Source: Candidatus Xiphinematobacter sp. Idaho Grape (GTDB lineage: Bacteria > Verrucomicrobiota > Verrucomicrobiia > Chthoniobacterales > Xiphinematobacteraceae). Taken from it: a DNA stretch of 64,000 nucleotides. The stretch is taken from positions 682,001 to 746,000 of the forward strand of contig NZ_CP012665.1 of assembly GCF_001318295.1 (NCBI RefSeq). Reading direction: 5' to 3'. Below are positions 36,172-40,665 of the stretch, in pieces (within the stretch, counting starts at the first letter, position 1; each line of letters starts with the position of its first letter). The translations under genes and the position numbers were made by a program. The notes below the pieces were generated by a model. It was given only the letters and a program-made list of their open reading frames with translations, was not told where the DNA came from and ran no database searches.

Positions 36172-36187
36172 ACACAATATATTGTGG
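36172..36187. promoter_or_regulatory. NrdR box 1 upstream of nrdB
   Basis: ACACAATATATTGTGG matches the published 16-base palindromic NrdR consensus (aCACwATATATwGTGt) at 15 of 16 positions by eye. It lies about 170 bases before the nrdB start. NrdR is the ATP/dATP-sensing zinc-finger repressor of ribonucleotide reductase genes. Confidence 0.8.
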
Positions 36188-36203: not shown

Positions 36204-36219
36204 ACACAATATACAGGTT
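36204..36219. promoter_or_regulatory. NrdR box 2 upstream of nrdB
   Basis: ACACAATATACAGGTT keeps the left half of the NrdR consensus exactly and a degenerate right half. Its start is 32 bases from the start of box 1, i.e. three helical turns, which is the spacing usual for paired NrdR boxes bound cooperatively. The spacing supports it more than the sequence alone. Confidence 0.7.
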
Positions 36220-36358: not shown

Positions 36359-37444
36359 ATGGCGATTACCACAATCCAAATTGGAGATAGGCGTTTCGTG
36401 CTGGACCGTGATAAAGCCGAAGCAGCGTTTGCTGCCAAACGAGTTATCAACGGACGGAAAACAATGTTCTTTAATATCCTCCCCCTCAAGTACCAATGGG
36501 CTTATGATCTATACAAGAAGATGAAAGCTAACCACTGGGAACCCGAAGATATCCCTATGCAAAAAGATTGCGAACAATGGGGGGATCTGGCTACTCCAGA
36601 GATTGAGCACTGGATCATTAAGATGGGTGTTGGTTACTTCTCAGCAGCCGAGGGAATTGTTGGGGATAACATTATGCACGTTGTTCGGGAGCTAGTGACA
36701 GCGCCAGAACTGAAGCTGGTTTTAGGACGCCATGCTCACGAGGAGAATATCCATACTGACTCCTTGGTGTATATGATTAGCTCCTTGGGAATCAATGCCC
36801 ATGAATGTGAGGCGATGTTTGAGGATATCAAAACGATTAGGAAAAAAACGGATTTCGTGGTGAGCAACAGCCACAAAATGCGGCGCAGTTTGGATCTGAC
36901 AACCAGAACGAACAAACAAGCATTAGCAAAAAACATTTTCCTCTTTGGGCAGTGTGTAGAGGGAACCCAGTTTTTTGGCTTATTTGGGCTCATTCTCGCT
37001 CTTTACCGAAACAATAAATTTCCTGGTATTGGACAAATGTTCCGATACACCCTTCGTGATGAATCCAACCACATAGAACTTCTGCGCAACCTGCTAATGG
37101 ATCTTGTAGAAGAGAATCCAGAGATTTGGACAGAAGCTTTCCGTTCAGACTTAAGGGAAACTATGGCTGAAGCTGTGCATCTAGAAAAGCAGTTTATCCA
37201 GGACTGTTTACCGGTTCATGTGGTCGGTCTGACGGGTCAAGAGTTTAAACTTTATATCGATTACATCGGAGACCGGCGTCTTATGGAGTGTGGATTACCC
37301 CCGTTAAATGTGCCTATTGCTAATCCGTTGCCGTGGATAGCCGAAATGATGGACATTAAAAAGGAGCAGAACTTCTTTGAAGGACGCGTTACCGATTACC
37401 AGAAATCCAATGTTCTGACTACCTCGCCTGATGACGAACTCTAA
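36359..37444 (+). CDS. nrdB: Class I ribonucleotide reductase R2 subunit lacking the radical tyrosine (class Ic-like)
   Basis: Small (metal cofactor) subunit that generates the oxidising equivalent for reducing ribonucleotides. The 361-residue ferritin-like protein keeps all six expected metal ligands: Glu98 (AAEGIV), Glu129 and His132 (EENIHTD), Glu201 (CVEGTQ), Glu235 and His238 (RDESNHIE). The position seven residues after Glu129, tyrosine in class Ia/Ib, is Leu136. Substitution here defines the chlamydial Mn/Fe class Ic enzymes, which usually have phenylalanine. The first ligand is glutamate, again as in class Ic. Trp47 and a C-terminal tyrosine (VTDYQ) could carry the electron-transfer path. 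Two NrdR boxes precede it. Confidence 0.95.
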   Translation: MAITTIQIGDRRFVLDRDKAEAAFAAKRVINGRKTMFFNILPLKYQWAYDLYKKMKANHWEPEDIPMQKDCEQWGDLATPEIEHWIIKMGVGYFSAAEGIVGDNIMHVVRELVTAPELKLVLGRHAHEENIHTDSLVYMISSLGINAHECEAMFEDIKTIRKKTDFVVSNSHKMRRSLDLTTRTNKQALAKNIFLFGQCVEGTQFFGLFGLILALYRNNKFPGIGQMFRYTLRDESNHIELLRNLLMDLVEENPEIWTEAFRSDLRETMAEAVHLEKQFIQDCLPVHVVGLTGQEFKLYIDYIGDRRLMECGLPPLNVPIANPLPWIAEMMDIKKEQNFFEGRVTDYQKSNVLTTSPDDEL

Positions 37445-38091
37445 TGCTCTAATTTGTTCCTGCGGTGCTTCCGCCATATGTCGCAAGGGGTCATAGCACC
37501 TAAGCAACTTGTCCAGTTTCCACAAGAAGAAAAGCCTTGGTGCACTTGTCGGGAACGGAAGATGTTTCAATGAAGATCACTATGTATAGTGGCAGAAGGG
37601 GGGGCAGCTGAGTGCGAATGAAGCAGTAGACAAAGTAAACATTTTTTCGAAATTCCTTTCTCCCTTTTCCCCGAAGGGAGAGAATCCAGACCGTAACCAT
37701 GAGTTTGTGGCAGGGTAGTATGCTTTAACTCCGCTCGTGGGATGAGTGGAACAACGGACAAATGCTCCATACATCTGAGGATGACATTTTTTTGCTTATC
37801 GAAATTGAAATCTAGTCGCTCTCCGAGGGGTTGTAGTAACTACTATGGAAACAGTTCCCTTTGGGACCGATCCTCCAGGCTAATTGCTCTTCCGATCCAG
37901 CAGAGTAGTCCTGCTGCGTCTCGGCATGAAGCAAAGTTAGGACTGCTTTCAAAAAGGCTTTCCTTGCCGTGGAAGAGTTTCTATCCCCAGCATCAAAAAT
38001 CGCAATTACTGTTCCCGAACGATTTTTATAAAACAGCGATACCTTGTTGGTCTGCCTTCTGGACATACAAGATATGGTATAAGAAGAGCTA
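37445..38091. other. Long spacer between nrdB and nrdA
   Basis: Nearly 650 bp separates two genes that are normally tightly linked. A plus frame of 116 codons (37742-38092) is not recognisable and is out of frame with nrdA; a TAA sits in the nrdA frame at 38080-38082. It includes an NrdR-like palindrome and an 8-bp hairpin TCTCCCTT/AAGGGAGA at 37659-37681. The region could be a decayed gene or decayed N-terminal ATP-cone sequence, but I see no cone motif in it. Confidence 0.5.
37578..37591. promoter_or_regulatory. NrdR-like palindrome between nrdB and nrdA
   Basis: CACTATGTATAGTG is a palindrome apart from its central pair and differs from the NrdR core CACTATATATAGTG at one base. No partner box is present 31-32 bases to either side, and it is about 500 bases from the nrdA start, so its function is uncertain. 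Confidence 0.4.
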
Positions 38092-40665
38092 ATGTGCGAT
38101 GGTCACTACAGCGAAGTTACAGAGAGTCACGTCCTTTACCGTATTCAACGCTCTCGTCTACGATATGAAAAATCTGGACGGGTCTTCTCTGGTCCGCCTG
38201 AACAAAAGGAACCTCCTATTATCGTCCGTACTATGACAGGCCAAAGTGTCTTTTGGGATGGAAGTGATCTAGAACACCGCATTCAGTTTGCCTCAGTTGG
38301 TCTGGATCTTTGTCTGAATAGCATACAGATTGAGAGCGAGTTGCGTCGCTCCATTGGAATAGAAGTTTCTGAAGACGTCCTCAGGAAAACTGTCATTTTG
38401 AATGCAAAGACTCTAATTGAGCGTGATGCCGATTTTTCCAGGTTTGCAGGTCGTATTCTACTTTCCTACATTTATGAAGAGGTGCTGGATTGGCACATTG
38501 CGCGCGATGGTGCTGAAGGTCTAAAGGCAGCGCACTGCAAAGCTTTTAGCACATATTTGGAGAGGGCAATCACTATTGAACGTTTAACTCCGAGATTGCT
38601 CTCCTATGATTTGGGGCGTCTAGCTGATGCATTAGATCCTTCTGCGGATTTAGACTTTGATTATCTTGGAATGCAAACCCTTTATGATCGCTACCTTATA
38701 GTAGACAAAACCGTAAAGCCGATCCGCCGCCTTGAAACCCCACAGTTTTTCTGGATGAGAGTAGCCATGGGTGTCTTCCTTGAGGACTTTGGGGATCGTA
38801 CTGCCCTAGCCATGCAATTATATTGCCTCTACAAAAATAGGAGGTTTTGTTCCTCTACGCCTACATTGTTTAACTCTGGCACCCTGCATAGTCAGCTTTC
38901 TTCATGTTACCTCTATAAGGTGGATGATAGTATCGAATCCATCATGCAACGGGGTATCGCAGATAATGCCTATCTCGCAAAGTGGGCAGGGGGACTTGGA
39001 GGGTCGTGGACAGCGGTACGTGGAACTGGTAGTTACATTAAAGGCACTAATGGGGAAAGCCAGGGAGTGATCCCGTTTCTAAAACTGCACAACGATCAGT
39101 TGGTGGCCGTTAACCAAGGGGGGAAGCGCAAAGGCTCTGGCTGCGCTTATTTAGAAACATGGCACAGCGATATTTTTGACTTCCTCAAGCTGCGTGTCAA
39201 TACAGGTGATGAGCGGCGGCGCACCCATGATATGAACACAGCAAATTGGATTCCGGATCTCTTTATGAAGCGCATGGAAGCACGGCAAAGCTGGATGCTT
39301 TTTCGCTCTAATGAGGTCCGAGATCTTCACGGACTTTACGGACGGTTATTTGAGGAACGTTATCAATATTATGAAACCCTTGCACGTCGAGGTCAGATCT
39401 TTGGACAAGAGGTACCTGCGATTGATTTGTGGAAGGAGATGCTCAGAATGGTCTTTGAGACAGGTCATCCCTGGATAACTTTTAAGGACCCTTGCAATAT
39501 TTGCTCACCGCAGGACCACGTTGGTGTGGTCTACTCCTCAAACCTCTGCACGGAGATTACGCTTAATACTAGCGAAGAGGAGACAGCGGTTTGCAACCTT
39601 GGATCCATTGTTTTAGATAGCCATATTCTTGAAGATGGCAGCATTGATCACACGATGTTGAGAGATACTATCCGGACTGCTGTGCGTGCACTAGATAATG
39701 TTATTGATATTAACTTTTATCCAATCGAAGCCGCTAGAAGAAGTAGCCTACGCCATCGCCCTATTGGGCTAGGCGTGATGGGATTGCAAAATGCTCTACA
39801 CAAGCGTGGGATCGGTTTTGCCTCACAAGAGGCCATAGAGTTTAACGACGAATTTATGGAAGTAATTGCATTCTACGCCTACAGTGCCTCTAGCGATCTC
39901 GCAGCTGAGCGTGGTACTTACGAGAGTTATGCAGGCTCCAAATGGGACCGTGGCATCCTCCCCCAGGATACTATTACTCTTCTGGAGCAGGAAAGAGGAG
40001 GATTCACAGAAGTTCCAAGAGACTGTAGTAGGATGGATTGGAAAATCGTACGCGAAAAGATACGTAAGCAGGGGATGCGCAATTCGAATGTGCTTGCCAT
40101 CGCTCCTACTGCAACTATCTCCAATATCATGGGGACCACTCCATGTATTGAGCCAAATTTCCGCAACCTTTACGTGAAGAGCAATTTAGGTGGTGATTTC
40201 GTTGTACTTAACAGGGAGCTTGTTCTAGATCTGAAAGCGGAAGGGCTGTGGAATTCAGATATGCTCGACCAACTCAAATACTTTAACGGTGAGCTTGAAG
40301 ACATTCCAAATATCCCTAAGCCTCTTAAGGAGAAGCACCTTACAGTATTTTCTATCGACTTTAATTATATTGTCGATGCCGCTGCACGCCGCCAGAAGTG
40401 GATCGACCAATCTCAATCTGTGACCCTTTTTCTGGCAGATCCAGACATGAAAACCCTTAGTCACATGTACCGTGCCGCTTGGAGAAAGGGACTAAAAACG
40501 ACCTACTATCTTCGCATACTGAGTGCTTCTGACATCGAAAAAATCACTCTTTCCGAATCAAAGAAAAAGATCCGTGGAACAGTTGCCAAAGTGGCTGCAA
40601 GTGCAGCAGCGGTTTGTTCCCTAGAAACTCACCAGGTCAGCTTTGGGTGTGAGGCTTGCCAGTGA
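38092..40665 (+). CDS. nrdA: Ribonucleoside-diphosphate reductase R1 (large) subunit
   Basis: Catalytic subunit that reduces ribonucleotides using the radical made by NrdB. The 857-residue protein has redox cysteines in LSSCYLYKV and TAVCNLGSI, the thiyl cysteine and glutamate in SNLCTEITLN, the tyrosine pair of the radical path in GLKTTYYLR, the PTATISNIMGTTPCIEPN loop and a C-terminal CEAC pair for re-reduction. The N-terminal about 130 residues resemble only the degraded end of an ATP-cone region (LIERDADFSRFAGRILLSYIYEEV); complete cones, present in two or three copies in chlamydial NrdA (over 1000 residues), are not visible. That may change allosteric control of activity by dATP. Confidence 0.96.
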   Translation: MCDGHYSEVTESHVLYRIQRSRLRYEKSGRVFSGPPEQKEPPIIVRTMTGQSVFWDGSDLEHRIQFASVGLDLCLNSIQIESELRRSIGIEVSEDVLRKTVILNAKTLIERDADFSRFAGRILLSYIYEEVLDWHIARDGAEGLKAAHCKAFSTYLERAITIERLTPRLLSYDLGRLADALDPSADLDFDYLGMQTLYDRYLIVDKTVKPIRRLETPQFFWMRVAMGVFLEDFGDRTALAMQLYCLYKNRRFCSSTPTLFNSGTLHSQLSSCYLYKVDDSIESIMQRGIADNAYLAKWAGGLGGSWTAVRGTGSYIKGTNGESQGVIPFLKLHNDQLVAVNQGGKRKGSGCAYLETWHSDIFDFLKLRVNTGDERRRTHDMNTANWIPDLFMKRMEARQSWMLFRSNEVRDLHGLYGRLFEERYQYYETLARRGQIFGQEVPAIDLWKEMLRMVFETGHPWITFKDPCNICSPQDHVGVVYSSNLCTEITLNTSEEETAVCNLGSIVLDSHILEDGSIDHTMLRDTIRTAVRALDNVIDINFYPIEAARRSSLRHRPIGLGVMGLQNALHKRGIGFASQEAIEFNDEFMEVIAFYAYSASSDLAAERGTYESYAGSKWDRGILPQDTITLLEQERGGFTEVPRDCSRMDWKIVREKIRKQGMRNSNVLAIAPTATISNIMGTTPCIEPNFRNLYVKSNLGGDFVVLNRELVLDLKAEGLWNSDMLDQLKYFNGELEDIPNIPKPLKEKHLTVFSIDFNYIVDAAARRQKWIDQSQSVTLFLADPDMKTLSHMYRAAWRKGLKTTYYLRILSASDIEKITLSESKKKIRGTVAKVAASAAAVCSLETHQVSFGCEACQ

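Follow-up and report, generated by a model that had tools for sequence, protein, structure and literature searches.

The closest known system to the reductase analysed here is the class Ic R2 protein of Chlamydia trachomatis, in which a Mn(II)Fe(II) pair reacts with O2 to yield a Mn(IV)/Fe(III) centre that acts as the stored oxidant; manganese occupies site 1, nearest the missing tyrosine (PMC8463856). Subclass Ic is defined as having Phe, Leu or Val in place of the tyrosine, and its residue pattern is given as E E H E E H together with E, D (PMC6370689). The first metal ligand is Asp in classes Ia/Ib and Glu in class Ic, and metal specificity is not set by the identity of this ligand alone (PMC4118035). 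Leucine at the radical site is already recognised as a subclass Ic residue. A 2026 preprint gives Phe or Leu as the reference residues of the subclass (PMC12918982), and R2c proteins carrying Leu, Ile or Val are cited in a further paper (PMC3824934). A literature search joining class Ic, radical tyrosine and leucine returned no matches.

We analysed a 64,000-nucleotide stretch (the window) of the genome of Candidatus Xiphinematobacter, a symbiont of the nematode Xiphinema americanum (CP012665; PMC4607532). This symbiont is verrucomicrobial rather than chlamydial, and its genome comprises one contig of 915,884 bp. The window contains the only R2 gene in this genome, nrdB. A search of the genome for other ribonucleotide reductases detected neither a class III enzyme (NrdD) nor a separate NrdJ; the class II model had nrdA as its only match.

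The nrdB gene and its subclass assignment

The nrdB gene is an intact open reading frame on the forward strand (36359–37444) that runs from an ATG start to a TAA stop and encodes 361 amino acids. Its product matches PF00268 (E = 3.5e-64, 217 bits), placing it in the class I R2 family in agreement with NCBIfam, and it combines the PF00268 fold with a dinuclear metal site and an adjacent nrdA, as class I R2 proteins do. The closest PDB sequence in a phmmer search was C. trachomatis R2 (1syy; E = 5e-70), at about 35% identity. An earlier note on this DNA had described an R2 protein with six visible metal ligands and a leucine seven residues past the second of them, in place of the radical tyrosine. 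Alignment confirmed both points. Glu98 (ligand 1; 36650–36652), Glu129-x-x-His132 (ligands 2 and 3; 36743–36754), Glu201 (ligand 4; 36959–36961) and Glu235-x-x-His238 (ligands 5 and 6; 37061–37072), all on the forward strand, align with known ligands. Leu136 (codon TTG; 36764–36766, forward strand) pairs with Phe127 of C. trachomatis, at the site of Tyr122 in E. coli. Because the note's reading could have been overturned by a tyrosine brought into register through a shifted gap, the interval from Glu129 to Leu136 was checked; it is ungapped against 1syy and no such tyrosine was found. Leucine occupies the site in all examined homologues with at least 72% identity, and nrdB is under strong purifying selection relative to the sister symbiont (dN/dS = 0.026); Leu136 is therefore not a sequencing error or a chance occurrence.

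The predicted protein shows the features of subclass Ic: the ligand set EEHEEH, with Glu rather than Asp first; a non-tyrosine residue, Leu136, at the radical site; and a second-sphere pair, Glu128 before ligand 2 and Asp234 directly before ligand 5, that matches the Ic (NrdBzc) pattern when columns 7 and 8 of Table 4 in PMC6370689 are equated with these positions by our own reading of the E. coli sequence. Among all fetched R2 proteins with complete sites, the EEHEEH ligands and E/D second sphere were present in 181 of 181 tyrosine-less rows (140 Leu, 23 Phe, 14 Ile, 4 Val), and the 36 Tyr-type rows all carried DEHEEH; the counterpart of Glu98 is thus Asp in every Tyr-type R2 sampled (cf. PMC4118035). 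The association between a first-ligand Glu and loss of the tyrosine is perfect, but a formal test of co-change had only three independent pairs on supported branches to draw on, which is too small a number to reach significance (p = 0.25).

The protein did not differ in any tested sequence feature from the RNRdb group NrdABz subclass Ic (NrdBzc). Tyr-type NrdBza proteins (Pseudomonas, Acinetobacter, Burkholderia) share the R2 family and the Glu/Asp second sphere, but are set apart by their radical-site Tyr and by Asp in the first-ligand position. In class Id proteins the site keeps its Tyr and second-sphere position 7 is Cys/Ser; in the symbiont protein these two residues are Leu136 and Glu128. 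C. trachomatis R2 (1syy, 4d8f, 4m1i) shares the EEHEEH set with Glu first, the lack of a radical tyrosine, the Glu128/Asp234 pair and the Trp/Tyr/tail-Tyr pathway; it differs in having Phe127 where the symbiont has Leu136, in belonging to a separate clade, and in that the leucine type is common in free-living bacteria. Judged by sequence criteria, membership of subclass Ic is well supported.

We also predicted the structure of NrdB with AlphaFold2 from 27 rows, obtaining a model of moderate confidence (pLDDT 78.5, pTM 0.76). The best solved Foldseek matches were C. trachomatis NrdB structures, Mn/Fe forms included, at about 1e-17. VIA gave Z 37 and an rmsd of about 3 for C. trachomatis NrdB, and Z 30–33 for class Ia/Ib/Id chains.

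Distribution and phylogeny of leucine-type R2 proteins

The earlier note had regarded leucine as the less common choice and had tied the reductase to life as an intracellular symbiont. Neither view survived a survey of Verrucomicrobiota, where leucine is the norm and is shared by free-living members. Thirty loci from the symbiont's order included 17 Leu proteins (the window's own and homologues of 74–95% identity), six further Leu proteins at about 50% identity with His138, and seven Phe-type proteins at 38%. The best 80 genome matches, drawn from one genome per species across 84,980 species, all carried leucine; they include cultured Haloferula, Cerasicoccus and Luteolibacter, which are examples of cultivated, non-pathogenic sources of the leucine form. 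A phylum sample of 64 further R2 loci yielded 38 Leu, 18 Tyr and 8 Phe. By these counts, leucine is the commonest R2 state in Verrucomicrobiota. Since free-living species also have the leucine type, the symbiont simply inherited it and did not acquire it as an adaptation to intracellular life, and we rejected leucine as a symbiosis-specific adaptation. The leucine-type R2 is a standard, already recognised version of the protein across much of the phylum and not a special symbiont trick. In one sub-clade of leucine proteins (L018–L023 and L164; about 50% identity), Tyr138, which lies two residues away from the radical site, is replaced by His.

This distribution bears on why such proteins exist. 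Tolerance of peroxide and NO is a hypothesis proposed for Chlamydia (PMC4390871). That leucine-type R2 proteins are spread through free-living species is evidence against host defence being their reason. A tyrosine-free, probably Mn/Fe, reductase is a standard enzyme in a common and mostly free-living phylum, which argues against such enzymes existing mainly to resist host immune chemistry.

Phylogenetic trees of R2 proteins were built without columns 98 and 136. With distant outgroups removed, leucine-type R2 proteins formed their own clade (support 100/100). This clade groups with Ile/Val R2 proteins from viral contigs (98/89). In the tree that included distant outgroups, C. trachomatis R2 falls within a Phe clade of its own kind (99/98), together with R2 proteins of other Verrucomicrobiota. 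The proposed match to the chlamydial class Ic group thus stands insofar as the protein is a tyrosine-less R2 of Ic type (EEHEEH, E128/D234, nearest structure); it fails in the narrower sense of membership in the chlamydial clade, outside which the leucine clade lies. The deeper branching depended on the outgroups. Without distant ones, a single branch (100/99) had the Leu/Ile/Val proteins, the chlamydial Phe proteins and haloarchaeal Phe proteins together on one side, and testing among near rows did not reject monophyly of the tyrosine-less rows as a whole (p-AU = 0.40). With long-branch outgroups, the chlamydial Phe clade joined Tyr-type rows and the rooting of the Phe and Leu clades was unstable. 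We consider it unlikely that the leucine lineage and its viral Ile/Val relatives arose apart from the chlamydial Phe type and use a metal pair or assembly chemistry different from Mn(IV)/Fe(III).

Three R2 proteins on alphaproteobacterial plasmids (L180, L186, L216) are Phe-type with Glu as first ligand and sit inside Tyr-type rows. Because of this placement, the trees suggest that the radical tyrosine was lost more than once, each time with an Asp-to-Glu change at the first ligand. The IMG/VR contigs L194–L211 encode tyrosine-less R2 proteins in which Ile/Val takes the radical site and the first ligand is Glu; these resemble the viral 'subclass Ic-like' R2 already described (PMC12918982). They are like the leucine proteins in lacking the tyrosine, in their first ligand and in grouping with the Leu clade; they are unlike them in their Ile/Val residue, their viral contigs and their identity of 36–38%. 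A second, diverged leucine-type nrdB (L173) adjoins the first (L162) in genome G167; in its product Asn replaces the pathway residue Tyr230, and it is perhaps an inactive partner subunit.

Cofactor, radical transfer and alternatives

The symbiont NrdB is probably a functional subclass Ic member of the class I R2 proteins that forms no tyrosyl radical and whose metal centre, most likely Mn(IV)/Fe(III), serves as the stored oxidant. Its Mn/Fe use, metal identity, oxidation states and O2 chemistry are most likely those of the Phe-type Chlamydia proteins, from which we infer them by analogy. We know of no assayed leucine-type R2. In the mechanism we propose, Glu98, Glu129, His132, Glu201, Glu235 and His238 would hold the dinuclear site, and oxidation of the metal pair by O2 (or peroxide) would give a high-valent centre, of which Mn(IV)/Fe(III), the form known from C. 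trachomatis, is the most likely version. This centre would itself store the oxidising equivalent, which would travel by way of Trp60/Tyr230/Asp234 to Tyr347 in the C-terminal tail (37397–37399, forward strand; C. trachomatis Tyr338) for transfer between subunits, and from there to the NrdA Tyr-Tyr pair and the active-site cysteine. Trp60, Tyr230, Asp234 and Tyr347 are all conserved in the symbiont protein, and we take their roles in radical transfer to be those of their counterparts in Chlamydia R2. Leu136 would fill the space of the radical tyrosine as Phe does in Chlamydia and have no redox part. The genome encodes one MntH-type Nramp manganese transporter, which scores above the NCBIfam cut-off and counts in favour of this reading. 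It also encodes one Fe/Mn superoxide dismutase.

The main alternative keeps the tyrosine-less R2 but gives it a metal-centred oxidant other than Mn(IV)/Fe(III), such as the Mn2(III/IV) pair of class Id or a high-valent di-iron centre. The leucine proteins do form a separate clade with a second-shell pocket of its own, differing from the Phe-type pocket at many positions (e.g., Y93, Q198, Q204, L208), and a first-ligand Glu is common to class Id and di-iron monooxygenases (PMC4118035; PMC6370689 Table 4). However, Glu128 precedes ligand 2 as in Ic, where class Id has Cys/Ser; class Id retains Tyr at the site (PMC8463856); and the Mn/Fe Chlamydia protein is the nearest in both sequence and fold, leaving another oxidant improbable, though the most credible of the rivals. 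Much less probable is a disguised class Ia enzyme whose radical tyrosine has moved elsewhere, e.g., to Tyr93 or Tyr138. Position 93 is Tyr in all leucine-type rows and Phe in Phe-type rows, and Tyr138, the nearest tyrosine, lies two residues past Leu136. Yet Tyr93 drops out of the conserved columns once the viral Ile/Val relatives are included, the first ligand is always Glu, the residue of the non-Tyr state, and we rejected Tyr138 as the radical residue, as C. trachomatis shares it and the sister sub-clade of leucine proteins has His instead.

Two further readings would deny the protein its role as a reductase subunit, and we give each a negligible probability. An R2-like ligand-binding oxidase (R2lox) or other non-RNR oxidase might be suspected, given that Glu is likewise the first ligand of R2lox, that R2lox carries an aliphatic residue where R2 has the tyrosine, and that NrdB attracts weak NCBIfam R2lox scores. 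These reach 57 bits against a cutoff of 194, on which score we rejected the identity, whereas reductase models reach 308 bits; moreover, R2lox lacks the tail tyrosine and has Ala at the position of Phe205, whereas NrdB has both Tyr347 and Phe205, adjoins nrdA and is the genome's one RNR small subunit. The loss of the N-terminal ATP-cone region from the neighbouring nrdA could in turn suggest that genome shrinkage has left the R2 degenerate and inactive, but the catalytic residues are kept, the genome has no other ribonucleotide reductase, and between the two symbionts the remainder of nrdA (dN/dS = 0.054) is, like nrdB, under strong purifying selection. As purifying selection on nrdB is what an inactive R2 would be expected to lack, degeneracy was rejected, and we retain the reading of a working subclass Ic protein with a metal-centred oxidant.

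The NrdA ATP-cone region and NrdR control

In every relative with both genes on the fetched stretch, nrdA follows nrdB, and its frame begins shortly past nrdB and spans about 1,060–1,100 amino acids or more. In the symbiont, the 647 bp past nrdB (37445–38091, forward strand), which correspond to the N-terminus with the ATP-cone in relatives, hold only remnants of this region, broken by in-frame stops and frameshifts. The surviving frame (38092–40665, forward strand; 857 amino acids) starts near the end of the cone, which occupies NrdA residues 165–249 in L031; it matches PF00317 and PF02867 and retains the barrel, the Tyr-Tyr pair and the C-terminal CEAC. The sister symbiont (G003; L002/L188) shows the same N-terminal decay with different indels. 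The region is intact in L003, L004 and L031, and of the closest relatives with larger genomes, two that belong to this genus carry it undamaged. Because the ATP-cone region has decayed in two Xiphinematobacter genomes, the symbiont's only reductase has lost the dATP on/off (overall-activity) switch. This decay is a fresher finding than the leucine.

The genome keeps an nrdR gene elsewhere, and the symbiont is a natural example of genome reduction in which a reductase has lost its dATP off-switch but its transcriptional repressor has stayed. A search at the sister symbiont locus (G003, L188 stretch) found no NrdR boxes. Upstream of nrdB in the window, sequence search identified a candidate box 1 (ACACAATATATTGTGG; 36172–36187, forward strand) and, 16 bp past it, a weaker match as box 2 (ACACAATATACAGGTT; 36204–36219, forward strand). 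No other pair of this kind occurs in the window, and known NrdR boxes are spaced 15–16 bp apart (PMC12176259). Because a predicted pair with the known spacing precedes nrdB, transcriptional control by NrdR may remain despite the lost activity switch.
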